NCBI GenBank assembly: GCA_015067825.1
Contig: SVLQ01000007.1
Coordinates: 62,001 to 126,000, forward strand
Source: Oscillospiraceae bacterium
Lineage (GTDB): Bacteria; Bacillota; Clostridia; Oscillospirales; QAMX01
Reading direction: 5' to 3'
DNA length: 64,000 nt
Position numbers and translations under genes: made by a program. Under the pieces are notes generated by a model, which had not been told where the DNA came from, did no database searches, and saw only the letters and a program-made list of their open reading frames with translations. Shown piece after piece: positions 18,070-46,664 of the stretch (positions are counted from its first letter, which is position 1; every line of letters starts with the position of its first letter).

Positions 18070-18121
18070 AAAAAAGGGCCGACCCAGCTTCATACAAAAC
18101 TGAATCGCCCAGACGGTCGGC
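18070..18121 (-). terminator. Riboswitch-controlled terminator before pflB
   Basis: On the minus strand GCCGACC pairs with GGGTCGGC and is followed by a run of T. The 5' strand of this stem is the 3' conserved strand of the ZTP aptamer, so ligand binding and termination exclude each other. Confidence 0.82.
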
Positions 18122-18176
18122 ATATGAAGCACTTGTGTTCCCCTGCGGTGACCCGCAAAATCCGTCAGTTACGCAA
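18105..18176 (-). promoter_or_regulatory. ZTP (pfl motif) riboswitch
   Basis: Read on the minus strand, the leader contains GTAACTGACGGA, a short hairpin, GGGGAAC, and then CCGACCGTCTGGGC, matching the two conserved halves of the pfl/ZTP aptamer. Such RNAs bind ZTP/ZMP, a signal of low 10-formyl-tetrahydrofolate. ZTP would prevent termination and raise PflB, which makes formate for one-carbon metabolism. Confidence 0.88.
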
Positions 18177-18197
18177 GTACTGTAACATCTTGTCCTT

Positions 18198-27336: not shown

Positions 27337-27360
27337 AAAATTTCTTTGTTCTTCCCAATA

Positions 27361-27451
27361 TCCTCGTATCAGGCATCCCTACGTTGGCATTATCCAAATC
27401 AGGTTCTCGGTCGAAGGTCACACCTTCCTCTCAGCCTGTATACAAGCTCCC
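27361..27451 (-). promoter_or_regulatory. TPP riboswitch (THI element)
   Basis: On the minus strand the leader has GGCTGAGAGG, ACCGAGAACCTGATTTGG and ATAATGCCAACGTAGGGA, the conserved core of the THI box. The closing helix is CTTGTAT with ATACGAG. Thiamine pyrophosphate binding would favour the downstream terminator and switch the operon off. Confidence 0.95.
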
Positions 27452-27471
27452 GTTTGTTCAGTTGTAAATAT

Positions 27472-27526: not shown

Positions 27527-27618
27527 GCTCCCGGACTTTCTGTGCGCATATATAATGATGGAAATTCTTGGGCTACTTCTTGCAGCGTTTGCTTTGTGGG
27601 GATCGTTTTCAATCGCGT
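27527..27618 (-). pseudogene. Truncated integrase remnant outside the left end of the element
   Basis: The first ~90 bases of the integrase gene at 45535-46461 are repeated here (LKTIPTKQTLQEVAQEF). The ATG has become ACG, a one-base insertion shifts the frame after codon ~20, and the rest of the gene is missing. It marks an older, largely deleted element at the same tRNA. Confidence 0.85.
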
Positions 27619-27793
27619 GACTCATACCTCTTTTTTAGTCAAAACCGTAGGCCCAGAAGCGTTTTTGCGATCTCTGAAAAACAGCACTTGTCACTTTTTT
27701 GCAAAGAAAAAAGGGAATTTACGAAGAAAATCGTAAATTCCCAATTTTGGCAGGGGCAGTAGGGATCGAACCCACGGCCTACGGTTTTGGAGA
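27527..27793 (-). repeat. Left long direct repeat (attachment region copy)
   Basis: About 267 bases nearly identical to 46371-46634: integrase 5' end, spacer, a 12-base-stem terminator, and 46 bases of the tRNA-Trp 3' half (27748-27793). Identity stops after GGTTTTGGAGA, inside the anticodon region. Confidence 0.92.
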
Positions 27794-28100: not shown

Positions 28101-29183
28101 TTACTCTGTTTCATATCGGCTGCTGATGTCATCAAGGAACTTTCTAAAGTCCGTCACGACCTCCTGAGGCATGATGATGGTAGCCATTTTACGGAATCCG
28201 GCAACCCAACCATAGAATTGATCGCTGATGGCAACATCGGTGCTGACAACAAAGTGCCCTTTACCATCGGGGTAATAAAACACATCTCCACCTGTGCCAA
28301 AGCGATCCACAATCGTATCCAGAAGGTTGTTGGTGAAACGTATGCTCACGCGCTTCTTCTCGCCGCTGAACATGCCGAAATGCTGTTGCGTATAGGATTC
28401 CATGTTGAGTTTAGAAAACGCTGTACGACCGTCTCGTTCCTCAGCAAGGACCTCTACGCCCTTCATGCGGTCCAAGCGGAAGGTAACTATCATTTCACGT
28501 GTGCTATTCCATCCCAAAAGATAGTAGTAGCCATCACTGATGATGAGCTTGAACGGACTGATTGTATAGGGTGCGCCGCCTCTGCGGTCCACCTGCTGTG
28601 TACGGTCCTGGATAGTGAATTTCTGATAGCGGAAACCAATCTTTCGGTTTTGCCGGATCGCCTGGTTGATCTTCAACATTGTGCTCATGATGTATTTGTT
28701 TGTGGTCTTGTTTCGGCCAACCAGATAGACCTCGTTTTGCAGTTCTTCAACCTGGTAATCGCTGCAAAGGTGCTCGATTGCCGCAAGCAGATGCGCTTCC
28801 TGACTCTTGGAGATAAACTTGGAAGCCCGCACACATTCAGCCAACAGTCGCAACTCATCAAACTCATATGGGCGGCGGCTGATTTTGTAACCGTGTTGCG
28901 ACTCGTCGTATTCCACCTCATAGCCGAGCAAATCTTTGTCTTCGATTTCGAGTTCATCCAAATCAAAGTCCATTTCTTTGTTCAGTATGGCGAGGATCGC
29001 ATCAATATCGCGCTTGATGGAGTGCCGTTCTGCCTTAATCCCATAACGCTTCAGGTGTTCCCCAATGTCCTTTAAGCGCAAAGCATGGTTCTCATCGGTC
29101 TTCTTCAAAAGGATATCCCAAACCAAAAGGGATTTGTACTTCTGGCCCTCTTGCTTGCCTCCGGGTTTCTTCGGTTTTTCCAT
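28101..29183 (-). CDS. WYL-domain transcriptional regulator
   Basis: 360 residues from the ATG at 29183 behind AAGGAAGGGG. An N-terminal winged-helix part (LKDIGEHLKRYGIKAERHSIKRDIDAI) is followed by a WYL domain (AIRQNRKIGFRYQKF, TISPFKLIISDGYYYLLGWN) and a C-terminal WCX-like extension. WYL proteins sense nucleic-acid ligands and often control defence genes. It is the last gene after res in the same direction, and the perfect 18-base palindrome at 29201-29218 lies directly before it. Confidence 0.9.
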   Translation of the reverse strand: MEKPKKPGGKQEGQKYKSLLVWDILLKKTDENHALRLKDIGEHLKRYGIKAERHSIKRDIDAILAILNKEMDFDLDELEIEDKDLLGYEVEYDESQHGYKISRRPYEFDELRLLAECVRASKFISKSQEAHLLAAIEHLCSDYQVEELQNEVYLVGRNKTTNKYIMSTMLKINQAIRQNRKIGFRYQKFTIQDRTQQVDRRGGAPYTISPFKLIISDGYYYLLGWNSTREMIVTFRLDRMKGVEVLAEERDGRTAFSKLNMESYTQQHFGMFSGEKKRVSIRFTNNLLDTIVDRFGTGGDVFYYPDGKGHFVVSTDVAISDQFYGWVAGFRKMATIIMPQEVVTDFRKFLDDISSRYETE

Positions 29184-29200
29184 GTGCGGCAACCCCTTCC

Positions 29201-29226: not shown

Positions 29227-32200
29227 CTACTTCATAACCTTTTCAAGCAAAGACTGGTAACTATCGACCACATCATATACGACATTGCCGCTGCTGATTG
29301 CCTTGAAATGTTCTCTGGCACAGTGAATCTTGGATTCCTCAATCAGTCGCAACTGCATAGAGTTCATAGAACCCTTTGTTTCTGCCACGAAATAAATGTG
29401 TTTGATATTACCTTCATAGAATGCAATTGCCCAGTCAGGGTTGTAGTGGCCAACAGGTGTGGAGATGTAGAAACTGTCAGGCAGTTTTACATACACCGCA
29501 ACATCACTGCTGACGTCCAAACTCTCAGCAAACGCCTTTTCGTTGGTAGAGTCATAAACAATATGGTCATACAAGTGCTTGTTCGCCTTGATAGCATTAA
29601 CACCCAACTTACCCTTGATGGTCGGAGCAGTAAATACATCGGTATCATACTTTTCATCCAGAACATCGTAGGTGATATGCTCAATGATTGCGGTTGCCTT
29701 TTCATCGTTGATAAGCGAACCTGCTTTAATGATAAATTCCTCTGGATTGTCCTTGAACTGGTCAAAGACAACTTTTTCAATTCCCTTGAGAATCTGAATG
29801 ATAGCCTTTCTGGTAAGTCCTGTAGCATCAACCAGTTTGCCAACCAAGTCATACTTGACGCTGCTATTAACAGAAATCTTGGTGGCAGCATTATGTACCT
29901 CGGAGGACTCCTTCACAAAGGACGAACCAGAAGCAAGAGCTTCCTTGGATGCGATATTGTCCATGCGTCCAGACTCGACCTTGAAGTAAATCTTGGATAC
30001 ATGCAGTTTCGCATTCAAGGATGCAATGGACTTTCTGACAAGTTCATCCGTGTCAAAGTCAACCACATAAACAGACTTAGAATTAATACGATTCCAGAGA
30101 GCCTTGAACTCTGGCATAGCCAGTTTCTTATCATCAACTTGAAGTTCAACATTATTGCTACGGGCATTTTCGGGCTGCATAGCCTTACCGTCATAGATGG
30201 TATCAATGATGCCAAGAACAGACTCGACAGAGCCAGAGACCTCATCGGTGAGTTTGATTTCACCGTTTGCCTTGTCCTCATAATACTTATCGGTAAGAGT
30301 ACCTTGCTTGTCGATGTAGCCCTCCATACGCAGACCAACATAGATTTCTCTGGCAACATCTTCGGTGATAACATCGGTATTGCCCTGTGCATCGGTAATA
30401 GTCTTGCCCATGAATAATTCGGGAGTAACTGCTTTCGGACGGTTCGCAACAGCGTCAGCCAGTTCAGTCTGTAAGCCCTTTGCGAAACTGTCATAACTCT
30501 CGCTGGCAATGACAGTCAGAACGTTGACGTTATGAACATCGTTGCCCAGAGCATTGACATCCATTCTTTCGCCATCTTGATTGACACAAAGACGCAGACC
30601 ACGACCAACTTCCTGTCTCTTGCGGACATCACTGCTGCTCTGCTTCAAAGTACAAATCTGGAAAACATTGGGGTTGTCCCAACCTTCACGGAGAGCAGAG
30701 TGAGAGAAGATGAAACGAACAGGAGATTTCTTCGGATTTCTGTCCAGCAGAAGTTCCTTGTTCTTCATAATCAAGTCGTAGGCATCAATATCGTCTGAGG
30801 AGGTTTCTTTTGCACTAACCTTAGAGTCAATCATCTTGCCCTTCTTATCAACAGAGAAGTAGCCAGCATGGGTGTTTTGAGGACTAATCATGTTCAAATA
30901 CTTGATGTAGTCATCGTCACCAAGCTCCAACTGCATATTTCCAACGACGTCGGCATACTCTTCTTCAAACATATCGGCATAAACACCGTTGAAGGGCTGT
31001 CCAGCCTTGTCATACTGCTTGTACTTCACAACCTCATCAATGAAGAACAGGGACAGAACCTTGATACCCTTGTAGAACAGTTCCCGTTCTCTCTGGATGT
31101 GAGACAGGATAGTTTCTCTAATCTGGATGCGTCTCAGCTGGTCTTCACTGACCTTGCCGATAACATCACCAGCATAGATTTTGATACCGTTGATAAACTC
31201 AACAGAGTCATCACGTCCATCAATCGCCTTGACCACGAACCCGTTCTTGTACTCGTCCAGATTCCCAGAGTTGTCGTAAAGGTTGAAGCCAATACCAACC
31301 TTCATAGACTTCTTGCGGATACCAGTAGCACCCTTGAAGTCAAACTGTAAGGTGGCGGTGGGGTCTGCTTTGGAAAGGTTCAGACCTTCCAGATACACAT
31401 AACTTTCGGTGGCAGTGCTGCCAGTCTCGGTGATACCCTTAACAGCAATCTTTTTAACCAGACGCTTGTTGTATGCTTCCATAGCGTCCAGACGATAAAT
31501 CATGTTGTAGATGCTGTCCTGCTTGTGGGTAGCAGAATAACGGAGGGTCATCAAGGGGTGGAACTCCTTGAGTCGTTCCTTGGTCTGAGTACCTTCAACG
31601 GACTGAGGTTCGTCAATGATAACGATAGGGTTCGTCTTGGCGATAATGTCAATCGGTCTGCGGCTGCGGAATTCATCCAGTTTCATGTAGATTCTACGGG
31701 CATCCTTGCCTTTGGCATTGAACGCCTGCGAATTGATAATCATTACATTGATGGAACTGTCAGAAGCAAAACGGTCAATCTCAGTAAGTTGAGCAGAGTT
31801 ATAGATGAAGAAGCGAACCTTCTTACCATATTCCTCCGCAAAGTGTTCCTGCGTCATCTGGAAGGACTTATAGACACCTTCACGGATAGCAACAGAAGGA
31901 ACAACAACGATAAATTTGCTCCAACCGTAGTGTTTGTTCAGTTCATACATCGTTTTGATGTAGGTGTATGTTTTACCAACACCAGTCTCCATTTCGACTG
32001 TAAGGTTGAAACGACCTTCCAGTTTGGAAGACGGTGCGATTAAGTTTGCTCTTTGAACCTTCTGAATATGTTCCAGAATCAAACGGTCATTTAGTTCCGG
32101 AATAAGTTTGGCGTTAGACCAGCCAGTGTAGTCCGTATCTTCCTCCAGCACGGATTGATACTCACCTGCGCCTCTGTCCATCATGTAAGAAGGTGTCAGA

Positions 32201-32280
32201 TAGGGCTGACCAGCAAAAACATCCACCACAGCCTTCGCAGCATCGGCTTGGAATTTCTGATGCTTGAATTGTAGTTTCAT
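29227..32280 (-). CDS. Type III restriction enzyme, Res subunit
   Basis: 1017 residues. SF2 helicase core: Walker A METGVGKTYTYIKT at about 95-108, DEPQ box (IVIIDEPQSVEG), and late helicase motifs (RFIFSHSALREGWDNPNVFQ, RQEVGRGLRLCVN). The C-terminal part carries a putative PD-(D/E)XK nuclease with VAETKGSMNSMQLR. With Mod it would cut DNA after translocation or signalling between unmodified sites. The ATG lies 12 bases after the stop of the small winged-helix gene. It is full length. Confidence 0.93.
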   Translation of the reverse strand: MKLQFKHQKFQADAAKAVVDVFAGQPYLTPSYMMDRGAGEYQSVLEEDTDYTGWSNAKLIPELNDRLILEHIQKVQRANLIAPSSKLEGRFNLTVEMETGVGKTYTYIKTMYELNKHYGWSKFIVVVPSVAIREGVYKSFQMTQEHFAEEYGKKVRFFIYNSAQLTEIDRFASDSSINVMIINSQAFNAKGKDARRIYMKLDEFRSRRPIDIIAKTNPIVIIDEPQSVEGTQTKERLKEFHPLMTLRYSATHKQDSIYNMIYRLDAMEAYNKRLVKKIAVKGITETGSTATESYVYLEGLNLSKADPTATLQFDFKGATGIRKKSMKVGIGFNLYDNSGNLDEYKNGFVVKAIDGRDDSVEFINGIKIYAGDVIGKVSEDQLRRIQIRETILSHIQRERELFYKGIKVLSLFFIDEVVKYKQYDKAGQPFNGVYADMFEEEYADVVGNMQLELGDDDYIKYLNMISPQNTHAGYFSVDKKGKMIDSKVSAKETSSDDIDAYDLIMKNKELLLDRNPKKSPVRFIFSHSALREGWDNPNVFQICTLKQSSSDVRKRQEVGRGLRLCVNQDGERMDVNALGNDVHNVNVLTVIASESYDSFAKGLQTELADAVANRPKAVTPELFMGKTITDAQGNTDVITEDVAREIYVGLRMEGYIDKQGTLTDKYYEDKANGEIKLTDEVSGSVESVLGIIDTIYDGKAMQPENARSNNVELQVDDKKLAMPEFKALWNRINSKSVYVVDFDTDELVRKSIASLNAKLHVSKIYFKVESGRMDNIASKEALASGSSFVKESSEVHNAATKISVNSSVKYDLVGKLVDATGLTRKAIIQILKGIEKVVFDQFKDNPEEFIIKAGSLINDEKATAIIEHITYDVLDEKYDTDVFTAPTIKGKLGVNAIKANKHLYDHIVYDSTNEKAFAESLDVSSDVAVYVKLPDSFYISTPVGHYNPDWAIAFYEGNIKHIYFVAETKGSMNSMQLRLIEESKIHCAREHFKAISSGNVVYDVVDSYQSLLEKVMK

Positions 32281-32292
32281 ATTTGCCCGTCC

Positions 32293-32715
32293 TTACTTTA
32301 CTATATTTTTTTGAATAGGAAGAACCACATTTTCCGGAACCGGAACTGGTTCATATCTGAATTGTCGTTCCTCCCACAGTAACGGTCTTCTGGCCCATAT
32401 GTAACTGAACTCCGGGCGTTCAATATAAGGATTCTTTTTGAATCGGAGTTTGCCGTTTTTATAAGAAATGTCTGTGTAGAGGTTTTCTCCAATAAGCCCC
32501 TTGAGATTGAACATAATTTCCAAATCCCATTCTTCCATATACGATTCGACAAGTTCGCTGATTCTTGCTGAAAATGTCGAAGGTTTGATAGGAATTCGGT
32601 CGATAAACTCTTTGCGTTGAATTGTGTAATACCCATCTTCATCGGGCTGTAATCCCTCGTATAATCTTTGTTGGACAAATAGCATCATTCTCTGTCCACT
32701 TAATGTTATCATCAT
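32293..32715 (-). CDS. Small winged-helix-like protein between mod and res
   Basis: 140 residues from the ATG at 32715, which follows GAGGTGG; an in-frame GTG at 32724 is the alternative. The middle (QRKEFIDRIPIKPSTFSARISELVES) reads as a helix-turn-helix or wing region. The rest (LEIMFNLKGLIGENLYTDISYKNGKLRFKKN) looks like beta strands. It has no known catalytic motif. Classical type III systems have only Mod and Res, so it may be an extra specificity, control or assembly subunit. It is tightly packed in the operon. Confidence 0.7.
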   Translation of the reverse strand: MMITLSGQRMMLFVQQRLYEGLQPDEDGYYTIQRKEFIDRIPIKPSTFSARISELVESYMEEWDLEIMFNLKGLIGENLYTDISYKNGKLRFKKNPYIERPEFSYIWARRPLLWEERQFRYEPVPVPENVVLPIQKNIVK

Positions 32716-32725
32716 AGCGGCCACC

Positions 32726-34612
32726 TCAAATAACTTTAACTCTGGTATCGGGTGCTAATAGTTTGAATACCTCATAAACATTGATTTTGGACGGACTGTT
32801 TGCAAAACTGCTGTCACGGAAGACAGCACGGAGGGGTTGCTTCTTGGCAATGGTCTTAATAACGCTGTCGGGAATGTTTTCATCAAAGCAAGCAATCAAG
32901 TCGCCATCATTGTAAGTATGTACGGTGCAGCCCTCAATGGTCTCGGAGGTATAAGGCAGCGAGAGAGGAAGTCCCCATTCAAGCAAGCAACCAAACAGCA
33001 AGTCAAGGTCAGTACGGTCTGCCTTAACATTAGATTCCAACATAGAAAGCATTCGCTGAGAGTATTCGTCAGCAGAGTAATACACATCATTCATATTAGT
33101 TTCATCCAGTATGAAGACACGGAATCCTATATCAAGATTTTGTGCAGTGAGAGGACTTTCTTCTCTGATTTTTGCTCCTGCACGACGGATACGTTCTTTA
33201 CCGATTTCGCAAATGTTTTTATAGCTATTTTTGTATGCCTCGCTATGTTCTCCGCAAGGCTCAGGAAGTTGTACTAAAATAAATTTTCTTCTACCACCGT
33301 CTTCTGCATTTTTCTGAATGACTGCATGAGCAGTAGTTGCGGTACCACTGAAAAAGTCAAGAAAAATCCCATCATTGCTATTGTTGCAAATGTTCACAAG
33401 GTGTTTAATAAGTGACGTTGGCTTAGGGGTTTCAAAAACTGCAACTCCATCAAAAAGAGAAACCAGTTCTCTTTTTGCAGAATCATTTGTACCTGTTTTA
33501 TCAGCGAATAATATGGTTTCAGGCGTTAACCCTTGTTTGCCATCGGTAATAAACTTCTTGATTCTTGGCACACCATTCCCATCACTGCCAAACCAAATAC
33601 GGTTGTCAGCAATAGCTTCATCCATCTTCTCTTTAGTATATCGCCAACAAGAGCCTGATGGAGGGTCAAAGTGCTTTCCACTAGGGCTTGTGATTGTATA
33701 GAATTGACTTTTAGTCCCATGGCCTGCTTGTGCTATAGCGGGAACAGATGTCCAAACACCTCTAGGGTCATTGTCTGGATTTTTATATCGTTCAATTGCA
33801 GTGTCATCCATTTCTTCAAGTCCAATAGCATTGGCTCTATTGTCATAGTTTTTTACAAAGCAAACAATGTAGTCATGACGTACAGATACAATTTTTCTAT
33901 TTTCGCGAGTTTTTCGTTTTTCCCAAACAAACGTAGCAATATAATTATTTGTTCCAAAGACTTCTTGCCCTATTTTAATTAAGTTAAACAATTCATTGTC
34001 ATCAATAGACATGAAAATTATTCCATCTTCCGATAACAAATTGCGAGCAAGTATCAACCTAGAATACAGCAAGGAACACCAATCTGAATGATATCTTCCT
34101 TGAGTGGCGCTATTTTCTCTGCTGAAATTTATGTTACCATTTTCATCAAAATATCCAGTTCCAGTTTCATAGTCTTCGTTATCCATTATAAAGGAGTCAG
34201 GATAAATAAAATCGCTTCCAGTGTTATACGGAGGGTCAATGTAAATCATCTTGATAGCACTAAGATAACTTTCCTGCAGGAGTTTCAGAACTTCCAGATT
34301 GTCGCCCTCGATGTAAAGGTTCTCGGTGGTGTCCCAATTCACGCTTTCTTCCTTACAAGGACGCAGCGTTTTACGGATAGGCTTGTTGGCTTCCACGATA
34401 GCAGCCTTTTTACCTACCCATGTAAATTCGTATGCTTCATTGCCCTCAATCACATCACCAGAGAGCATCTGCTTGAGCAGTTCAAAGTTGATGGCTTTCT
34501 TAGCCTTGCCGTTCTCATCAATAGCCTCGGTGATGCAGTTCGGGAACAATGCCCCGATTTTTTCAATATTCTGAGAAGTCATATCTAACGACTCCATCCT
34601 CATTTTTTCCAT
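32726..34612 (-). CDS. Type III DNA methyltransferase, Mod subunit
   Basis: 628 residues. Beta-class N6-adenine methyltransferase: catalytic DPPY in KMIYIDPPYNTGSDF at about 130, and the SAM motif FLDFFSGTATTAHAV at about 405, with target recognition between them. The C-terminal 120 residues probably bind Res. It would methylate one strand of an asymmetric site; the site cannot be predicted. There are no simple-repeat tracts, so phase variation by slippage is unlikely. It lies 20 bases after the ATPase gene. Confidence 0.93.
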   Translation of the reverse strand: MEKMRMESLDMTSQNIEKIGALFPNCITEAIDENGKAKKAINFELLKQMLSGDVIEGNEAYEFTWVGKKAAIVEANKPIRKTLRPCKEESVNWDTTENLYIEGDNLEVLKLLQESYLSAIKMIYIDPPYNTGSDFIYPDSFIMDNEDYETGTGYFDENGNINFSRENSATQGRYHSDWCSLLYSRLILARNLLSEDGIIFMSIDDNELFNLIKIGQEVFGTNNYIATFVWEKRKTRENRKIVSVRHDYIVCFVKNYDNRANAIGLEEMDDTAIERYKNPDNDPRGVWTSVPAIAQAGHGTKSQFYTITSPSGKHFDPPSGSCWRYTKEKMDEAIADNRIWFGSDGNGVPRIKKFITDGKQGLTPETILFADKTGTNDSAKRELVSLFDGVAVFETPKPTSLIKHLVNICNNSNDGIFLDFFSGTATTAHAVIQKNAEDGGRRKFILVQLPEPCGEHSEAYKNSYKNICEIGKERIRRAGAKIREESPLTAQNLDIGFRVFILDETNMNDVYYSADEYSQRMLSMLESNVKADRTDLDLLFGCLLEWGLPLSLPYTSETIEGCTVHTYNDGDLIACFDENIPDSVIKTIAKKQPLRAVFRDSSFANSPSKINVYEVFKLLAPDTRVKVI

Positions 34613-34632
34613 TACTTTGTTCCTCCTAAAGC

Positions 34633-36261
34633 CTATTCTTCAAATATCTCCTGTTCAAGTTGTTTGTATATTTCGGTATCTGGAGTAACAAGCGGAGCCA
34701 TAGTATCTCGAATAAATGTATCTGCAGAATTACCGCACTGTCTGAGAGCAAGGGTTTTCCTTAATCCAAGATATATCTCTCCACGGGCTGATTTAATATC
34801 GTCTTCTGGATATCCTTGAGACACAGAATTTGCGATAGCAACAGCCTTTTGCGCCAAGCATTCGGAATACTTGTCGGGTTGATTTTCATCAATGCACAAT
34901 TTCTCGATTATTGAATTATCAAGCAAATATGCTTCCAAGTGTCGCCTGGATAGTACTTTGATATTCTTCTTCAAGAGGTCTGCGACCTCTTGGCCACTAC
35001 GATCATCACGGTCCACAATCTTAATCACCTTGCAATTTTTCAACAATGTGCTAATAAGTTCACCGTGCGTTGTTTCAATTTTCTCCATATCCTCGCATGA
35101 ACCGCCAGAAACAAAAAATGTGTCTGGGTGGGTGTCTCCAAATATAGTGGTATAGATGGACTTGTCAAAATCTTTGCGCTTTTTCCCATTAGGAGTACCC
35201 TCACAAAACACAATCGTTTTTGGCAACATCAGTTTTGCAAAATCCCCAAATGCTAATTCATAAAACTTATCCATAACTGCTTTCCCAACCTTGGATGGAC
35301 GGATAATTTGGTCAGTATCGAAATCTCTTTCACTAAAATCAAGGAATGCAACTGTCCCAGGATTCTCTTTTTCAATATCTTCTGCTTCTTGTAGCATACC
35401 AATAGAGTGTGTTGAAAGCCAAAGCTGTGAATTGCCAGGAACCAATTTATATAATTCACGTAATACCGTTCCTTGAAGCTTTGTGTGCATATGAGCTTCT
35501 GGTTCGTCGATACAATAGACGGCATCAGGATAATATTTAGATTGGATAACCATGTCTAAAATCAAATCAAAGGCAGACTTTTCTCCAGCAGAAAGATTGC
35601 GATAGTGAAAATTTGTTGTCGTGCCTTTCGTAAAATAGAAATTCCCGTTTTTTAGAGGTTCTCCAATAGAAGAAAATTTCAAATCCTCAAAGACCCGTTC
35701 AATTGCGTCACGAATTTTTCCTATTAATTCATCTCGCAAAACCTCAACTGATTTTTTGCTGTTCGCATTGTCAAAAACTCCAGCAATCGTATTTGCCACA
35801 AGTCGCTGGTAATTTGAAGACACAGTTTGGTCGTTTTGGATAAGTGTCGAAAGTCGGACAGAAGAAGTAGGATCATCTTGTCTGTGCATCGAATCGATTT
35901 GGAAATCTGGCTCGTTTCGATACGCGCTTCGGAAATAAAAGTGACCTTTAATATTGCTTTGTCCAATCACTTTAGAAAATGTAGCGTCATAAAAATCAAT
36001 GTCAACAAGTTCTGGGCAATGCTGAAACCATTCGATATGGCTATACTGATTTATATCACCAGTTTTTCTCAAATATCTATAGTCCCCAATATCTTGATAA
36101 CCAGAATACTTGTAATAATGATTCATCGATTCCATAAAAGAAGTTTTGCCCGAACCGTTTGGTCCAACCAAAACGATCAATTTAGCCGTTTCAGGAATAT
36201 CCTCCACCAATAGGTGTGTAAAGCGTTTGAAGTTATTTAATTCGACTTTCTTAATTCTCAT
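34633..36261 (-). CDS. OLD-like AAA ATPase with TOPRIM-type C-terminus
   Basis: 542 residues, ATG behind GGAGG. Walker A GPNGSGKTSF at about 33-42, ABC-like signature LSAGEKSAFDLIL at about 225, and Walker B DAVYCIDEPEAHMH at about 250. The C-terminal half has KTIVFCEGTPNG and KIVDRDDRSGQEV, the acidic pattern of a TOPRIM nuclease as in OLD-family proteins. OLD proteins act in phage defence. Being the first full gene of the operon with mod and res, it probably adds a nuclease or sensor step. The length fits class 1 OLD proteins. Confidence 0.82.
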   Translation of the reverse strand: MRIKKVELNNFKRFTHLLVEDIPETAKLIVLVGPNGSGKTSFMESMNHYYKYSGYQDIGDYRYLRKTGDINQYSHIEWFQHCPELVDIDFYDATFSKVIGQSNIKGHFYFRSAYRNEPDFQIDSMHRQDDPTSSVRLSTLIQNDQTVSSNYQRLVANTIAGVFDNANSKKSVEVLRDELIGKIRDAIERVFEDLKFSSIGEPLKNGNFYFTKGTTTNFHYRNLSAGEKSAFDLILDMVIQSKYYPDAVYCIDEPEAHMHTKLQGTVLRELYKLVPGNSQLWLSTHSIGMLQEAEDIEKENPGTVAFLDFSERDFDTDQIIRPSKVGKAVMDKFYELAFGDFAKLMLPKTIVFCEGTPNGKKRKDFDKSIYTTIFGDTHPDTFFVSGGSCEDMEKIETTHGELISTLLKNCKVIKIVDRDDRSGQEVADLLKKNIKVLSRRHLEAYLLDNSIIEKLCIDENQPDKYSECLAQKAVAIANSVSQGYPEDDIKSARGEIYLGLRKTLALRQCGNSADTFIRDTMAPLVTPDTEIYKQLEQEIFEE

Positions 36262-36361
36262 AAAAGTCCTCCAATTCCTTCTTCGGTTCGCCGTTCAGCT
36301 TCGTCTGCACATTCAGATACTTTTCCTTGCGGATTTTGCCTTGTATAACCTCAATCTGCAT
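36251..36361 (-). CDS. 36-residue open frame overlapping the ATPase start (doubtful)
   Basis: It starts MQIEVIQGKIRKEKYLNVQ and is highly charged. Its stop overlaps the ATPase ATG by a few bases, which would couple translation. It has no ribosome-binding site of its own. It follows a short frame beginning MVSYKP at 36383, which has an excellent AAAGGAG site but stops after 10 codons. That opening is common in small XRE-type regulators, so the region may be the scar of a deleted regulator gene. Confidence 0.35.
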   Translation of the reverse strand: MQIEVIQGKIRKEKYLNVQTKLNGEPKKELEDFYEN

Positions 36362-36421
36362 TTTGAGGTTTATAGCTAACCATGTTTTTCTCCTTTAAAT
36401 TTGTGTCGACTATATAATACA

Positions 36422-36450
36422 TTATAACACGGTAATCTCCGCGTTTCAAC
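36422..36450 (-). promoter_or_regulatory. Promoter of the defence operon
   Basis: TTGAAA, 17-base spacer, TATAAT on the minus strand, about 40 bases before the MVSYKP frame. Confidence 0.75.
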
Positions 36451-36538
36451 AAAAATCACAAGACATTGGGTGTTGTTCGCAACAAATCCTGACAAAGTAA
36501 AACAGCCGAACTAACATTTCTGTTAATTCGACTGTACA

Positions 36539-37120
36539 TCATATCACGCCTCGCAGTTGTTCTCTTCTCGCCCGTATCAATGTGCTTTTGCTGATTCCAA
36601 GAAGTTCAGCAATTCGCTTGTAGCTCTTGCCCTGGTCCAACAGTGCAAGGCCGTGCCGCAGTTGCTCTTGGGTGAATTTCTTTGGTCTGCCCTCGCGGTA
36701 GTTCGGGTCTTGTTTGGCCAGTACTTTCCCTGTCTGTGTGCGCTCGACAATCATACCGCGCTCGTACTCGGCAAAGGCAAGCATCACCGTAAGAATGAGG
36801 TTTCCGGTTAAGGTGTTCTCAATCAAACCCATATTGAGAATATGTACCCTGATGCCGCGTTCGAACAGTTCCCGCACAGTCTGAACACCTTCGATTGCGG
36901 TTCGGGCGAATCGGTCAAGCTTACACACGACTAAAGTATCGCCCTCTTGGAGCGAGTCCAAAAGCTCCTGGAACTTCGGTCGTTCCATAGTTTTCCCTGT
37001 GAAAGCTTCTTTCACAATCTCCTGGCAGCCGTATTTCTCCAAGGCCGCAACCTGGTCTTCCAAGCTATTGCCGTCTCTGCCTTGCGTGGCAGTTGATACC
37101 CTCGCATATCCGTAAATCAT
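36539..37120 (-). CDS. Serine recombinase (resolvase/invertase)
   Basis: 193 residues from the ATG at 37120 ([17 protein letters not shown]). The catalytic serine is in YARVST at position 9. [13 protein letters not shown] carries the conserved arginines. The C-terminal helix-turn-helix reads [17 protein letters not shown]. Length is normal for small resolvases. Upstream frames that extend through the 33-base repeats have no ribosome-binding site and are not counted. Its probable binding sites are the repeats at 37148-37249. It may be a resolution system of the element or cargo from another transposon. Confidence 0.92.
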
Positions 37121-37147
37121 ATCGTTTCTCTCTTTTCTTTTGATGCT

Positions 37148-37249
37148 AAGTTCTGACACCGATTTTCGGCTTTTGGTGCTAAGTTCTGACACCGATTTTC
37201 GGCTTTTGGTGCTATCTTTTGGCACTGACCGCGCTCGGTGTCAGAACTT
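37148..37249. repeat. Repeats upstream of the recombinase (candidate res site)
   Basis: AAGTTCTGACACCGA occurs at 37148-37162 and 37181-37195, with 33-base periodicity, and in inverted form at 37235-37249. They directly precede the serine recombinase gene, as resolvase binding subsites do. Confidence 0.7.
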
Positions 37250-37295
37250 TTAAGTTTTAAACCTTTGTTGAACTCGAAATCATTCCTCTTTCTTT

Positions 37296-37364
37296 AAATT
37301 GGGAATGGTGGCATTGCATTTCTCTGTAAATACCATTGCTATCATTCCCAATTTGTGTTATACT
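37296..37364 (+). promoter_or_regulatory. Promoter of the fic gene with 12-base inverted repeat
   Basis: TTGCTA (37336-37341), 17-base spacer, TATACT (37359-37364). AAATTGGGAATG (37296-37307) and CATTCCCAATTT (37343-37354) form a perfect inverted repeat, with the second arm inside the spacer. Confidence 0.65.
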
Positions 37365-37403
37365 ATCTTTGATAGAGTTGACACTAGTCAGGAGGCAAGT
37401 CGG

Positions 37404-38303
37404 ATGGACTATATTAAGGTATCTCAGGCAGCAGAAAAGTGGGGAATCTCTGCGCGGCGTGTACGCTTGCTCTGCGCCCAAGGCAAGATTGACGGTGTAA
37501 TCCGTAAAGGCAATCTCTACATGATTCCCGAAAATGCTACAAAGCCTCTTGATGGCAGAACGAATAAGAAAAACGTGCTGCTTGATATTCAGCGCAAGCG
37601 TGAAAAGCTCGCCCAAATGCGTCCGCTGACGCAGGGTGAGGTAGAACGCCTTGCCGAAGAGTTTATGATCGAGTTTACTTACAATTCTAACGCCATCGAG
37701 GGCAATACCTTGACACTGAAAGAAACAGCGATGGCACTCGAGGGCATGACCATCGATCAAAAACCGTTGAAGGACCACTTAGAAGCGGTCGGCCACAGAG
37801 ACGCATTCCTTTACGTTCAGGATATTGCGAAAAAGGATCTTCCTTTGAGTGAGGTTGTCATCAAAAATATTCACGCACTCGTCTTGATGAATCGCCCGGA
37901 AGACAAAGGGATTTACCGTCGCATCCCCGTGCGCATCATGGGTGCATATACGGAGCCGGTACAGCCTTATTCGATCGAACCCAAAATGTCGGAACTTCTC
38001 GTTGTGAACGAAGAACGCAAAGCGAAGCTGAATGACATTGAACGTATTGCTCTTTTCCACCTTGAATTTGAGGGAATTCATCCGTTCATCGATGGCAACG
38101 GCAGAACAGGCAGATTGATTTTGAATCTGGACCTCATTCGCAATGGTTATCCGCCCATCAATGTGAAATTCACCGACCGCAAACGCTACTACGATGCATT
38201 TGATGCTTATTATCGTGACGGCAACGCCAGTCAAATGGTTGAAATGATTGCCCAGTACGTAAATGAGCGCTTTGATGAATACTTGGCAGTTTTGGAGATT
38301 TGA
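37404..38303 (+). CDS. Fic family protein with N-terminal helix-turn-helix
   Basis: 299 residues from the ATG at 37404 behind AGGAGG. Residues 1-50 look like a MerR/excisionase-type DNA-binding segment (DYIKVSQAAEKWGISARRVRLL). The Fic core carries the complete active-site motif HPFIDGNGRTGR at about 220-231, so it should transfer AMP or another nucleotide to a hydroxyl group. SNAIEGN at about 95 fits the class II inhibitory (S/T)xxxE(G/N) helix, meaning self-inhibition without an antitoxin gene. It is monocistronic with a palindrome at its promoter, possibly self-regulated. Confidence 0.9.
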   Translation: MDYIKVSQAAEKWGISARRVRLLCAQGKIDGVIRKGNLYMIPENATKPLDGRTNKKNVLLDIQRKREKLAQMRPLTQGEVERLAEEFMIEFTYNSNAIEGNTLTLKETAMALEGMTIDQKPLKDHLEAVGHRDAFLYVQDIAKKDLPLSEVVIKNIHALVLMNRPEDKGIYRRIPVRIMGAYTEPVQPYSIEPKMSELLVVNEERKAKLNDIERIALFHLEFEGIHPFIDGNGRTGRLILNLDLIRNGYPPINVKFTDRKRYYDAFDAYYRDGNASQMVEMIAQYVNERFDEYLAVLEI

Positions 38304-38451
38304 TGCGAATATCCACCAAATTGACGTAAAGGAGAGCAATATCAAAGCAAAGACACAGAACTAACCGAAAACAATCAAGGAAAAATTGTCAACCATACTT
38401 ATAAGTTGGCTTGAAAGAAAAAATAATACATAGCAAAAGGTGGATAGGTAA

Positions 38452-39597
38452 ATGGAAGATAAATGTTTTGTCCCTATAGAGTTCATCCGCGCCAACAAAC
38501 ACTTGCTGGACGAGAAAAAGTCACAGACTACTTATAAAATTGAATATGTCTCCAAATATGTTGAGAAGTGGCTTTTCGTCATGTCAAATATTGATAATGT
38601 TGAAAATATCAACTTCATCGATTGTATGTGTAATGCGGGTATTTACACCGACGGCGGAAAAGGTACGGCGATAAAAGTGCTTGAGTTGTTCAATGGTTTT
38701 GCATTGCAGCACCCAAACAAAACTTTTAATCTGATTTTGAATGATATTAGCCCTGACAGGCTTTGTATCATAACCACCATCATTAATGATTATGTCGGTG
38801 TCAAAGCACAAAACATCAATATTGTAACTCGCAATCTAGATGTAAATGCATTCCTAAGCGACGAGAAGTTTTTTGTTCAATACTTTAACTGTTACCCCAA
38901 GCGCTCAGCCAATTTAGTGTTTGTGGATCCATATAACTTCTGCACCGTAAAAATATCTGTGCTTGAAAAGTTTTTATCTAAGGCCTATTGCGAGTTAATC
39001 TTCAATATATTTACAAGCGACTTTGTCCGCAATCAAGACAAAGAAAAAATGAAAAAGTTCTGTAAAGAGGAAAATATCTTCTGTACGACTAAAGAAGCTA
39101 TGGTCCTGCAAATTACCAGTCAGTTAAAGGTAGGTTACATTAAATATTCATTCGCATACGAGTTTAAGACGATAACAAATATGGAACTCTATCAAATTAT
39201 GTTTTTTACACCCAATATTAAAGGGCTTGAAAAGTTAAAAGAGGCTTTGTGGGATACTTTTAACGGAAAAGAGTTTCATCGGAATCAAGCTCGGCAAGAC
39301 GCGGAACAAATGAGTTTGTTTTCCCAAGACGATGAGAAAGATTGGCGTATAGAATCACACTCCGCCGTCGCCAAAGAGCTATTGTTGGCGCATTTCCCCA
39401 ACGATAACGAAATCGAATACATAGCGATTGAAGAGTTTGTTATTGAAAACACTATGCTCAATGAGAACCAAATTCTTGAACACGTTCTGAAACCCTTAAT
39501 TCAAAACGGTCAAGTGAAGAAGTTGGGCTATGTGAACCGTTCAAGCAATTACAAAAAAGATAAATACATTGTAGGTGTAGTAGATAATGAAGATTAA
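38452..39597 (+). CDS. tcmP: Three-Cys-motif partner protein (TcmP family)
   Basis: 381 residues, ATG behind AAAGGTGG. Residues 40-180 have a methyltransferase-like layout: VENINFIDCMCNAGIY in the position of motif I, NLILNDISPDRL, and ANLVFVDPYNFC. The C-terminal third has a winged-helix character (EEFVIENTMLNENQILEHVL). TcmP proteins occur next to a radical-SAM-like three-cysteine protein, and here that partner overlaps by 11 bases. The reaction is not established. The pairing and the mobile location suggest a nucleic-acid or defence role, which is inference. Confidence 0.75.
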   Translation: MEDKCFVPIEFIRANKHLLDEKKSQTTYKIEYVSKYVEKWLFVMSNIDNVENINFIDCMCNAGIYTDGGKGTAIKVLELFNGFALQHPNKTFNLILNDISPDRLCIITTIINDYVGVKAQNINIVTRNLDVNAFLSDEKFFVQYFNCYPKRSANLVFVDPYNFCTVKISVLEKFLSKAYCELIFNIFTSDFVRNQDKEKMKKFCKEENIFCTTKEAMVLQITSQLKVGYIKYSFAYEFKTITNMELYQIMFFTPNIKGLEKLKEALWDTFNGKEFHRNQARQDAEQMSLFSQDDEKDWRIESHSAVAKELLLAHFPNDNEIEYIAIEEFVIENTMLNENQILEHVLKPLIQNGQVKKLGYVNRSSNYKKDKYIVGVVDNED

Positions 39598-40360
39598 AGA
39601 AAAAATAAAACGCAGTTCGTTGCTTTACAAAACGGGCGTCGAATACGGAGACTATACTATAAACCATATTCAGGGGTGCGCACATGGATGTAAGTACCCC
39701 TGCTATGCAATGTCTATGGCAAAGCGCTTCGGCAAAGCAAAAACATACGAGGAATGGTGCGAACCCAAACTTGTGGAAAACGCGCTTGAAATATTAGACA
39801 CTGAAATTCCTAAACTCAGAGATAAGATTGGGTCTGTTCATCTGTGTTTTACCTCTGACCCATTTATGTATGGATACGAGGAAGTAGCAGAAACGTCTAT
39901 CTCTATTATTAGAAAACTAAACAATGAGGGAATTAAATGCACTGTTTTGACAAAGGGCATTTTACCAATTATTCTTGCTGAACTCTCGCCAGAAAACGAG
40001 TATGGAATAACACTGGTTTCCCTTGACGAAGATTTCCGGCGAGAAATGGAACCTAATTCAGCACCATTTGCCGAAAGAATCCAGGCTCTTAGAGTACTGC
40101 ACGATGCTGGTTGTAGAACTTGGGTTAGCATGGAACCGTATCCTACTCCTAATTTTATTGAGCAAGATTTGAATGTGATTCTTGAGGCGGTTGGCTTCTG
40201 CGACAAGATTATTTTTGGACGTTTGAATTACAACAAAAGAGTGTCCGAATATAAGGATTTCAAAAGGTTCTTTAACGATTGTGCCTACAAAGTTACTAAG
40301 TACTGCCAAGAGAACAACAAGGATTACCACATAAAAAAAGGTACTATTACTGATTACTAA
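39587..40360 (+). CDS. Radical-SAM-like three-cysteine protein, partner of TcmP
   Basis: 257 residues. The cysteine motif is GCAHGCKYPCYA at about 30-41, that is C-x3-C-x3-C rather than the usual C-x3-C-x2-C. Downstream, VHLCFTSDPFMYGYEEV, CTVLTKGIL and WVSMEPYPTPNFIE resemble SplB/DUF5131-type radical-SAM barrels. It starts inside the end of the tcmP gene, so production is coupled. It is about the length of a minimal radical-SAM domain with no extra cluster domain. Substrate unknown. Confidence 0.75.
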   Translation: MKIKEKIKRSSLLYKTGVEYGDYTINHIQGCAHGCKYPCYAMSMAKRFGKAKTYEEWCEPKLVENALEILDTEIPKLRDKIGSVHLCFTSDPFMYGYEEVAETSISIIRKLNNEGIKCTVLTKGILPIILAELSPENEYGITLVSLDEDFRREMEPNSAPFAERIQALRVLHDAGCRTWVSMEPYPTPNFIEQDLNVILEAVGFCDKIIFGRLNYNKRVSEYKDFKRFFNDCAYKVTKYCQENNKDYHIKKGTITDY

Positions 40361-41874: not shown

Positions 41875-42084
41875 GTGCCTATTGTTTATAAAATTGATAT
41901 CCTGGCTGCTTTGAAGGAAGCTGGATACAACACCAATCGTCTGCGGAAGGAGAAACTGCTTTCCGAAGGTGTCATTCAGTCTTTACGCGAAAATAAGTAT
42001 ATTGCTTTGCAGAATATCTCCAAGATTTGCGAGCTGTTAAATTGTCAGCCCGGAGATCTTATGGAATACCAAAAGGACGAATAA
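41875..42084 (+). CDS. XRE-family (Cro/CI-like) regulator
   Basis: 69 residues from GTG behind AAAGGAG. It is nearly only a helix-turn-helix of the HTH_26 type: IDILAALKEAGYNTNRLRKEK, then LLSEGVIQSLRENKYIALQNISKICELLNCQPGDLME. It is divergent from the coiled-coil/SprT operon and probably controls both directions through the inverted repeat. A terminator follows nine bases after the stop. Confidence 0.88.
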   Translation: MPIVYKIDILAALKEAGYNTNRLRKEKLLSEGVIQSLRENKYIALQNISKICELLNCQPGDLMEYQKDE

Positions 42085-43246: not shown

Positions 43247-43313
43247 AAAAGAATTACTTTTTGCCCAACAATAAATATATTTTTATTATTGATAAGCAAA
43301 AAGTAATTCTTTT
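43247..43313 (-). terminator. 18-base-arm hairpin at the end of the winged-helix gene
   Basis: Perfect 18-base arms (43247-43264 and 43296-43313) with an AT-rich loop. The right arm overlaps the stop codon of the gene at 43312. The left arm ends in T on the minus strand. Confidence 0.7.
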
Positions 43314-43878
43314 AGATTTCCGTCCACCAAGCATTTGCCTCTAGCTCTTGGCCTAGTTTGAGAAATATACCTTCTCCAAACTTCGCGGAGACGGGCTTTT
43401 TATAGACATTTTCATACTCTAGTACCAAAACTTTTTTCGCTCTGCCTACAGTGGATTTTGAAACGTTTAGGGCTTCCGCAATCATTTCGTCGGTGACGAT
43501 ATCTTTCTTATTGTGTAAGACCCAAGCAAATACCTTCAGCACCTGGGCGAATGCCACTCCCTTACCGGAATAGTCGTGTCTGATTACTGACTGCACCCAA
43601 CGCCGAGGAAGGGCAATCTCTGTGGCTTTTGGAATGACCTTCATGATTTGCGTGCGGCCTCGGCTATCGTGTGTGATAAAGCCAGCGGCAGTCAAGGATG
43701 GAATTGCAGTCTGAAGCCGATTCCTATTGTTGTCCTGCGGGGTTACACCTAAGTATCTGCACATATCCGAGTAGTTGCCACGGTAAGAACCACCTTGTTC
43801 CGCAACCATTGCGAGAACATTGAACTCGTCTTTTGGTAATGAAATCCATTCGAAATAGAAAGTTACTTGTTCCTCCAT
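43312..43878 (-). CDS. Winged-helix protein, possible replication or partition factor
   Basis: 188 residues. Two helix-turn-helix regions are visible: one in the N-terminal half (GNYSDMCRYLGVTPQDNNRNR, then LQTAIPSLTAAGFITHDSRGR) and one near 140 (TDEMIAEALNVSKSTVGRAKK). Two winged helices in tandem are usual for plasmid-type replication initiators and some regulators. It is the third gene of the operon behind the three cassettes at 44949-45268 and begins one base after the preceding stop. Confidence 0.6.
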   Translation of the reverse strand: MEEQVTFYFEWISLPKDEFNVLAMVAEQGGSYRGNYSDMCRYLGVTPQDNNRNRLQTAIPSLTAAGFITHDSRGRTQIMKVIPKATEIALPRRWVQSVIRHDYSGKGVAFAQVLKVFAWVLHNKKDIVTDEMIAEALNVSKSTVGRAKKVLVLEYENVYKKPVSAKFGEGIFLKLGQELEANAWWTEI

Positions 43879-43879
43879 T

Positions 43880-44347
43880 CTAATTTACCTTCTCTTCTTT
43901 TGTCTTGTAGAGCTTAATTTCCGGTGCCTTCACAATGGGCATGACAAGGCCTTCTTGTGTAGATGTAGGTGCTTTCGCATAGAGAGGGAACTGCGCAATA
44001 AACCAGTCACAAACATATTTGTAGGGGCTTACGCAAGTCTGAGACAGGGATTTTACCGTTTCAAACTGTGCCATGAGTTCATCTGCGTTGTCGTATGCTC
44101 CGATATGTGTTTCCATGTTTTCATAGGTCAGACGGCGATTCTTCTTGGCAGAGTGGCATTCATGCCCAGAGACAACAGCTTCTTTCATACCAGGGAAGTC
44201 TTTGCGGATGTTGCGAATGAGCGCGTTTTGCGGTGTATTGTATATGGCTGCGGCAGCCGCAAACTTGTGGTTCATGATAACGATATTTTCACTGAACAGA
44301 ATCTTGTAACCTTCACGACCGGGAGTTACTTTTCTCGTGGTAGCCAT
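43880..44347 (-). CDS. Unknown protein, paralogue of the upstream gene
   Basis: 155 residues. It shares with the protein at 44367-44864 the pattern IRNIRKDFPG, LTYENM, a charged gap, LMAQFETVKSLSQ, and SPYKYVCDWF. No known domain, signal or membrane helix. It follows the paralogue by 19 bases and is followed at once by the winged-helix gene, so the three are made together. The conserved tryptophan, proline-tyrosine and LTYENM suggest a defined fold. Confidence 0.65.
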   Translation of the reverse strand: MATTRKVTPGREGYKILFSENIVIMNHKFAAAAAIYNTPQNALIRNIRKDFPGMKEAVVSGHECHSAKKNRRLTYENMETHIGAYDNADELMAQFETVKSLSQTCVSPYKYVCDWFIAQFPLYAKAPTSTQEGLVMPIVKAPEIKLYKTKEEKVN

Positions 44348-44864: not shown

Positions 44865-44948
44865 AATAATTCTCCTTTACGTGGTAGGTCACGACCCATA
44901 ATTTTTTTATTTTTTTCGAGGAGCTGTTGTCCTCTTGTTTACGTGTTT

Positions 44949-44991
44949 ATTATACCATTTTGTTTTAGGTGGTGTGGTACAAAAATGTACC
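44949..44991 (-). promoter_or_regulatory. Activator-type promoter cassette 3
   Basis: Perfect palindrome GGTACAAAAATGTACC outer arms (44976-44991), exactly 21 bases, then TATAAT on the minus strand (44954-44949). It has no recognisable -35 box. It lies about 85 bases before the start of the gene at 44864. Confidence 0.72.
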
Positions 44992-45056
44992 ATTTGTTTT
45001 TGCTGTGTCAGGAGCGATGGAAGTCTGCTTGAGGTTGTCTTGCGCTTTCTGTATCT

Positions 45057-45099
45057 ATTATATCAGGCCGCAGATTGCGGGGTGGAACACTAATGTACC
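45057..45099 (-). promoter_or_regulatory. Activator-type promoter cassette 2
   Basis: Palindrome-like GGAACACTAATGTACC (45084-45099), exactly 21 bases, then TATAAT on the minus strand (45062-45057). Same geometry as cassettes 1 and 3. The palindrome overlaps the stop codon of the 24-residue frame. Confidence 0.72.
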
Positions 45100-45173
45100 T
45101 ATAAGAATATCAAATACTTGCGGTATTCTTTTCTGGTCAGATGGCTGATGCTGCGAGGGAGGTCGATTTTCAT
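45099..45173 (-). CDS. 24-residue peptide between cassettes 1 and 2
   Basis: MKIDLPRSISHLTRKEYRKY followed by LIFL and TAG. GAGGTG lies seven bases upstream of the ATG, and cassette 1 lies about 55 bases upstream. Basic with a hydrophobic end. It could be a regulatory leader peptide or a chance frame. Confidence 0.42.
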   Translation of the reverse strand: MKIDLPRSISHLTRKEYRKYLIFL

Positions 45174-45225
45174 TTGTGTGCACCTCACTTTGTTTTTGTT
45201 TGTTGTGCCATTGCTTTGTGATTTA

Positions 45226-45268
45226 ATTATACCAAACTCAAAATCAAAGGGTGGTACATAAATGAACC
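45226..45268 (-). promoter_or_regulatory. Activator-type promoter cassette 1
   Basis: Palindrome-like GGTACATAAATGAACC (45253-45268), exactly 21 bases, then TATAAT on the minus strand (45231-45226). It would transcribe the 24-residue peptide frame first. Confidence 0.72.
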
Positions 45269-45534: not shown

Positions 45535-46461
45535 TTATACTTTGCTTCTTCTGGAACTACTTTGCAACAGTCCTACCGGACTATAATGAAGGTGGCTTTC
45601 TATCAGTAGCTTATCCGATAATTCTGTGTATCTTTTGGTCATTTGTAAATCGGTATGGCCCATTTGCCGTTGAAGCGTGAAAAGATCGCCTCCGTTTTCC
45701 AAATAGAAGGTAGCGAAACTGTGCCTGATCTGATATGGTGTAAACTTTACATTTGAACGAGTACAGTATTTTCTGAAGTTGCGTCCTAAAACGTTTGCCT
45801 GAAGGCGTTTTCCATCGCGAGTAGGGAAGAGCCAGTTTTCCCATTCTGGTGGTTTGACTCGCAAAAACTTTCTTAAGGAGGTGTTGGTCACGCTTGAAAG
45901 ATACAGTGTTCTGCTCTTACTTGTTTTGGCAACAGTTGGACGAATAAAGATCGACTGTGTATTCGAGTCATAATCGGTATTGGCAATTGATAAGAGTTCA
46001 CTGGTTCGGATGCCGGTATCAAGCATAAGAAGAATAATATTGTAGTCGCGCAACTCTGTATAGTTGTGTTTGTCCAGTGACTTCAGCAGTGTTTGGATGT
46101 CCTGTATTTCTGCGGGCTTGACATTTCCTTCATCCCTAATCTTCTTTAGTTCCAATTTGTCAAATGGATTGTAGGGGAGATAGTCTTGCTTTGCGCACCA
46201 GGAAAAGAATGCATGGAGATATTGATACGGGTGATTGTACCGGGCGGGACTGGTTACGGGAATCTCTGCGAAATAGGCTAGAATATCCGCTTTGAGTATT
46301 TCTATATCTAAAGAATTGTTGGAACGTGCGAGAAATTTTTCGATATAGTTTCTGTAGTCGTTTCGTGTTCGCTCCCGGACTTTCTGTGCGCATTTAAATG
46401 ATAGAAATTCTTGGGCTACTTCTTGCAGCGTTTGCTTTGTGGGGATCGTTTTCAATCGCAT
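45535..46461 (-). CDS. Tyrosine recombinase (integrase) of the element
   Basis: 308 residues from the ATG at 46461 behind AGAGGTG. An N-terminal SAM-like core-binding domain (RNDYRNYIEKFLARSNN) is followed by a catalytic domain with DTGIRTSEL (Arg), TPYQIRHSFAT (HxxR-type), MGHTDLQMTKRYTEL (His and the Tyr nucleophile). XerC/D-like in size, with no arm-binding extension. It is placed 128 bases from the tRNA 3' end and reads away from it, typical of elements in tRNA genes. All catalytic residues are present. Confidence 0.93.
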   Translation of the reverse strand: MRLKTIPTKQTLQEVAQEFLSFKCAQKVRERTRNDYRNYIEKFLARSNNSLDIEILKADILAYFAEIPVTSPARYNHPYQYLHAFFSWCAKQDYLPYNPFDKLELKKIRDEGNVKPAEIQDIQTLLKSLDKHNYTELRDYNIILLMLDTGIRTSELLSIANTDYDSNTQSIFIRPTVAKTSKSRTLYLSSVTNTSLRKFLRVKPPEWENWLFPTRDGKRLQANVLGRNFRKYCTRSNVKFTPYQIRHSFATFYLENGGDLFTLQRQMGHTDLQMTKRYTELSDKLLIESHLHYSPVGLLQSSSRRSKV

Positions 46462-46634
46462 GACGTACACCTCTTTTTGTCAAAACCGTAGGCCCAGAAG
46501 CGTTTTTGCGATCTCTGAAAAACAGCAGTTGTCACTTTTTTGCAAAGAAAAAAGGGAATTTACGAAGAAAATCGTAAATTCCCAATTTTGGCAGGGGCAG
46601 TAGGGATCGAACCCACGGCCTACGGTTTTGGAGA
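46371..46634 (-). repeat. Right long direct repeat (attachment region copy)
   Basis: Counterpart of 27527-27793. It includes the integrase 5' end, the terminator hairpin GGGAATTTACGA/TCGTAAATTCCC (46554-46583) and the tRNA 3' half up to the anticodon loop. Confidence 0.92.
46547..46583 (-). terminator. Terminator of tRNA-Trp
   Basis: A 12-base perfect stem followed by T on the minus strand, six bases after the CCA end. It is copied at 27713-27742. Confidence 0.85.
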
Positions 46635-46664
46635 CCGCCGCTCTACCAGCTGAGCTATACCCCT
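46589..46664 (-). tRNA. trnW: tRNA-Trp (anticodon CCA), integration target
   Basis: 76 bases including encoded CCA. Acceptor AGGGGTA pairs with TGCCCCT, D-arm GCTC...GAGC, anticodon loop CTCCAAA, T-loop TTCGATC. The gene is intact because the element restores the 3' half. Confidence 0.96.

Follow-up and report, generated by a model that had tools for sequence, protein, structure and literature searches.

We lean towards the reading that the three cassettes described here are activator-dependent sigma-A promoters of a family of integrative elements, and that the dimeric regulator acting on them would most likely be the element's own WYL protein, in a DriD-like manner. The cassettes belong to an integrative element of about 19 kb in tRNA-Trp, and they were tracked in the window, that is, the whole stretch of 64,000 nucleotides of Oscillospiraceae DNA which was analyzed. 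The cassettes and the small features lying around them are as follows.

44949-44991, minus strand: cassette 1, closest to the genes, with dyad GGTACATTTTTGTACC (44976-44991), 21 nt, TATAAT (44949-44954) and extended -10 TGG
45057-45099, minus strand: cassette 2, with dyad GGTACATTAGTGTTCC (45084-45099), 21 nt, TATAAT (45057-45062) and extended -10 TGA
45226-45268, minus strand: cassette 3, most upstream, with dyad GGTTCATTTATGTACC (45253-45268), 21 nt, TATAAT (45226-45231) and extended -10 TGG
44918-44934, minus strand: small hairpin near the predicted 5′ end of the RNA; relatives have similar hairpins
45099-45173, minus strand: ORF of 24 codons, MKIDLPRSISHLTRKEYRKYLIFL, 3′ of cassette 3

A sequence-only reading of this DNA had reported three 16-bp near-palindromes on the minus strand, each exactly 21 nt before TATAAT, and all of them were read directly at these positions. 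It had called the copy at 44976-44991 perfect; this is right only for copy 1 and there only for the six outermost bases of either arm, and over the whole dyad 6 of 8 pairs are complementary, the same number as in each of the other two cassettes. The start site was predicted at 12 nt past the first T of the -10, and relative to this predicted start the centre of the dyad falls at -41.5 in all three cassettes, which confirms the geometry of a class II activator position as it had been proposed. The position -41.5 is the typical one for class II activators. The lack of a -35 box was borne out in every cassette, where the best match to TTGACA reached only 2-3 of 6 bases with spacers of 15-19, so that the three cassettes combine a site near -41.5 over the -35 region with a poor or absent -35. 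An extended -10 (TGn) is present in all three and had been overlooked by the sequence-only reading. When the three copies were compared in pairs, the 16-bp sites were identical at 12-14 of 16 positions and the spacers at 7-10 of 21, so that the cassettes are not the product of a recent plain duplication.

The full cassette was searched in the 2.7-Mb host genome with up to 3 mismatches allowed, and this search returned three matches only, each with 0 mismatches, and no fourth cassette. The dyad GGTWCANNNNTGTWCC has one further occurrence in the same genome besides the three copies, and this one lies within a coding gene. The absence of a fourth cassette and the intragenic place of this lone extra dyad therefore point to a regulator which is private to the element. 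The exact cassette pattern gave one match in IMG/VR, which is unrelated, and the Rfam search of the cassettes and the leader gave no credible match.

Distant relatives of the element have a related site in the corresponding place, as was determined by a blind scan in which the promoters of 11 relatives were aligned on the -10 alone and the window was left out. The upstream block of 16 bp with the highest conservation, at 8.7 bits, stops exactly 21 nt short of the -10; in 5000 shuffles the score never rose above 5.7 bits. Counts over relatives are inflated by kinship, for which the adjoining spacer serves as an internal control; the spacer is far less conserved than the site, with an identity of 0.23 between the window and one of two groups of relatives and of 0.38 for the other. 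A spacer which diverges in sequence and is held in length fits an activator. With each promoter left out in turn, the top match fell within 1 nt of the expected place in 9 of the 11 relatives and in copy 1 of the window, and copies 2 and 3 of the window rank second and third at the expected place. Ten further elements of the window's order were identified later, and each of them has a site exactly 21 nt before a -10 with TGn (10/10); the model trained on the first set ranked the expected place first in nine of them and second in one (G173), whose site matches in its outer arms. Overall, the site is kept by 24 promoters of 22 elements, the window's three included, at 21 nt in 22 of the 24 and at 20 nt in two (G746 and G858). 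An extended -10 without a -35 was found in 13 of 15 promoters, and many of the relatives' sites are asymmetric rather than palindromic (2-6 of 8 pairs).

Loss of the palindrome or of the 21-base spacing in relatives had been named as evidence against the sequence-only reading, and such a loss did not occur in the main clade, which keeps the site; only a separate clade and the outlier G021 are without it. In G021 there is only one paralogue, the site is missing and the WYL homologue reaches only 25-27% identity. Of the sequence-only reading, the analysis supports that the cassettes have a regulatory site which is dedicated to the element and sits in the position of a class II activator.

Extra cassettes were found in two of the relatives. 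The second cassette of G825 has an identical 16-mer, 21-nt spacing and TGG-TATACT, with a spacer agreeing at 10 of 21 positions, and it precedes a different, intact gene of 141 aa with the same type of leader; G151 likewise has two cassettes. Since G825 and G151 carry these extra copies, the cassette can be regarded as a reusable expression unit. Copies 2 and 3 of the window may be remnants of units which once drove cargo genes, as in G825, and the 24-codon ORF behind cassette 3 is possibly a remnant of the gene which that cassette once drove.

The bounds of the 19-kb element were drawn from the integrase beside tRNA-Trp and from a repeat of about 190 bp which reaches into the tRNA, and the G+C of the element is lower than that of the host. 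Its main features are listed below.

45535-46470, minus strand: tyrosine integrase, adjoining tRNA-Trp
46441-46634: att-side repeat, right copy, running into tRNA-Trp (46589-46664, minus strand)
27600-27793: att-side repeat, left copy
44881-44897, minus strand: leader motif GGGTCGTGACCTACCAC, preceding the ribosome-binding site of P1
44367-44864, minus strand: P1, first tandem paralogue
43880-44347, minus strand: P2, second tandem paralogue
43312-43878, minus strand: winged-helix-like protein, not kept across the site-bearing relatives
41875-42084, plus strand: Cro/C1-type HTH_26 protein, not universal in relatives
28101-29192, minus strand: WYL-WCX regulator at the far end of the element (Pfam WYL 4.8e-15, WCX 6.8e-7)

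The att-side repeat is unusually long, and its two copies are near-identical with few differences. The backbone is largely common to the related elements and consists of the integrase, the P1/P2 pair, the winged-helix protein, a 91-aa protein, a resolvase and the WYL regulator. Defence-like cargo lies at 29227-40360 and comprises a type III restriction-modification pair, an AAA ATPase with AriA/PtuA-like matches, a Fic protein and a PDC-M30A-like protein. The window also holds host riboswitches of the ZMP/ZTP type (18100-18182, minus strand) and the TPP type (27359-27463, minus strand).

The leader GGGTYGTGACCTACCAC was also seen in phage contigs (L019-L067), right before the ribosome-binding site, and 38 of its 44 exact matches there are followed by a Shine-Dalgarno-like stretch and ATG, a context seen at 6.7% of random positions. 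Rfam gives no family for this leader and the literature search found no paper with its sequence; the variants GGGTTGCGACC and GGGTGGCGACC are present in relatives of the element.

The cassettes had been described as leading into two paralogous genes of no known family, and this was upheld, as P1/P2 have no model in Pfam, PHROGs or NCBIfam; they are a new tandem-paralogue family, whose members mostly occur as a tandem pair. In whole-genome searches, members of the family turned up in 21 of the 394 genomes from the window's order, in 8 of 95 from another order and in 5 of 391 sampled from the class; the 398 sampled from the phylum gave none, the window's own genome aside. Close relatives of P1 were absent from phages, plasmids and IMG/VR, and those of the 43312 winged-helix protein from IMG/VR. 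The AlphaFold models of P1 and P2 (mean pLDDT 61 and 74) gave no structural match. Weak matches to the family in G219 and G235 have no recognisable promoter.

The best candidate for the activator is probably the element's own WYL regulator (28101-29192), which was absent from the candidates of the sequence-only reading and whose binding we infer from the sequence comparisons. Among the site-bearing elements of the first set, nine are covered by enough sequence, and all nine encode a WYL protein. The type of the site follows the type of the WYL protein even where the paralogues disagree, G385 excepted. The WYL proteins of the window, G173 and G262 form one clade (98/98) with the sites GGTACATTTTTGTACC, TGCATAATTGTGTGCA and TGCACATTTGTGTGCA; in the G410-type clade the sites end in RAYGAC or similar, G385 being the exception, and in the G865-type clade they end in GTAC, GCAC or GTAT. 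G858 has paralogues of other lineages, yet its WYL protein, encoded on another contig beside an integrase, and its site are both of the G410 type. In G171 and G182, P1 groups with that of the window and G173, and the WYL protein and the site do not. No WYL gene grouping with the element type was found in G825 and G151. These two cases, the separate contig of the G858 gene, the mismatch in G385 and the many asymmetric sites of relatives weigh against the favoured reading. The N-terminus of the WYL proteins has a conserved AERRSxYRDI-like stretch and no Pfam HTH match.

A second class of operator accompanies a different WYL clade. G348, G324, G287, G228, G072 and the shortened G073 are without the 21-nt site and have another dyad, which ends 7 nt before the -10; its clearest form is ACCTATCC-N9-GGATAGGT, centred at about -32 (loci L155, L157, L159, L160, L161 and L162). 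The WYL proteins of G348, G324, G287, G228 and G072 form a clade of their own (96/100), and those of G073 were found only elsewhere in the genome.

The assignment to the WYL protein was weighed against other regulators. The site could be recognised by P1 and/or P2, which would then control the operon they belong to, and the conserved pair could occupy the often asymmetric site as a heterodimer; they lie always directly behind the site. Correlation tests support WYL, as WYL_HTH correlates with the site given P1 and P2 (r=0.26, p=0.004), and leave a partial correlation for P2 (r=0.19, p=0.018). The correlations over nine elements did not separate WYL from P1/P2, and the larger set separates them only partly. 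We consider this explanation unlikely, as no DNA-binding domain was recognised in P1/P2 by sequence or by fold, and as G858, G171 and G182 break the link between paralogue and site. Binding by either of the two proteins which the sequence-only reading had put forward, the winged-helix protein at 43312 and the HTH protein at 41875, is very improbable. Both are encoded by the element and have HTH-type domains, but in relatives which keep the site the P1/P2 pair is followed by winged-helix proteins of at least three unrelated types, and a look-alike of the 43312 type, judged by eye, stands in G348 with the other operator; HTH_26 proteins accompany either operator, and several elements have none. 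Proteins of both kinds are thus found alongside another operator in some relatives, which disfavours the two candidates.

The dyad may also be read as a repressor operator over an otherwise active promoter, since promoters with an extended -10 can function without a -35. WYL repressors near defence genes are indeed represented by CapW and BrxR (PMC9122588, PMC9122601). We regard repression as quite unlikely, because a repressor does not need the fixed distance of 21 nt, which is kept despite the divergence of the spacer, and because CapW sites overlap the -10, unlike the dyads of the window. A global regulator of the host of the CRP/FNR/NtcA type would agree with the centre at -41.5 and with copy 1, which reads GTA-N8-TAC; its action on the element is nevertheless hardly to be expected, as the dyad is at no other promoter of the host genome and the relatives keep the place of the site but mostly not GTA-N8-TAC. 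Class II promoters of CRP/FNR/NtcA share with the cassettes the dyad at -41.5, the poor -35 and the -10 of sigma-70 type, and differ in that no host regulon has this site and that its letters change from one WYL clade to another; a CRP/FNR gene linked to the element was likewise not found.

Roles of the dyads outside transcription initiation were rejected as well. As arm sites of the integrase they lie too far away, being more than 1 kb from the att repeat, and the G865 dyad is several kb from the integrase, beside the WYL gene. Replication iterons would leave the fixed distance to the -10 unexplained, and as a plus-strand terminator only dyad 1 scores.

Among known systems the layout of the window resembles that of WYL activators. 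DriD of Caulobacter crescentus is a homodimeric WYL activator triggered by ssDNA, which it binds first; it then binds pseudo-palindromic sites at a constant distance from the -10 of promoters with a poor -35 and anchors the polymerase (PMC12340889). Its dyad is centred on the -35 and has the consensus ATACGAC-N7-GTCGTAT. The DriD entries 7TZV and 9PFQ/9PFV/9PGA (PMC12340889) are the best matches of the WYL family profile among solved structures. The candidate of the window likewise has WYL and WCX domains, and its promoters share the constant distance from site to -10, the poor -35, the G of the extended -10 and a site over or flanking the -35 region. The window system differs in lying on a mobile element and in having three tandem copies, and it was not classed as a DriD system because its dyad centre at -41.5 is several bp farther upstream and its letters differ from the consensus. 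SiwR and PafBC are mycobacterial WYL activators tied to DNA damage (PMC10693628, PMC6789036, PMC11804915). SiwR, too, recognises an imperfect palindrome located upstream of the -10, but this site extends from -35 to -10, PafBC acts as a heterodimer with contacts at about -24, and both are chromosomal. The WYL repressors BrxR and CapW, which belong to defence islands (PMC9122601, PMC9122589, PMC9122588), share the neighbourhood of defence genes with the window's regulator; however, they repress, the CapW operator covers the -10 whereas the window dyad ends 21 nt before it in place of the -35, and the WYL gene is also present in elements without restriction cargo.

In the favoured reading, with the WYL protein as activator, the dimeric regulator would bind the 16-bp dyad at -41.5 and compensate for the missing -35 contact, and together with the extended -10 it would let the polymerase start the conserved operon of P1, P2, the winged-helix protein and the following genes. 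The WYL domain may bind an effector, perhaps ssDNA, by which the WYL protein would be freed to bind DNA and recruit the polymerase, and the three tandem copies may raise or sharpen the output. Binding, activation and an effector are presumed here, as are a role of the operon in excision/replication or mobility and the reason for three copies; ssDNA as the signal is a guess by analogy. More tentatively, the elements may be an undescribed family of Clostridia integrative elements, in which a self-encoded, ssDNA-sensing WYL activator would start the core operon without repressor cleavage of the LexA/CI type. In such a family the activator site would have replaced the -35, the letters of the site would have co-diversified with the DNA-binding domain of WYL, and the operator of one clade would have moved to about -32.

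Apart from a few models, little is known about how integrative elements other than phages sense the trouble of their host and begin to move, and the design proposed here is a possible route by which DNA trouble could wake such mobile elements. About two dozen natural promoters, many with the matching regulator, provide a ready set for the study of site specificity, spacing and effector. If the link to WYL is true, WYL proteins would switch the mobile elements themselves, beyond the defence cargo which these elements carry.
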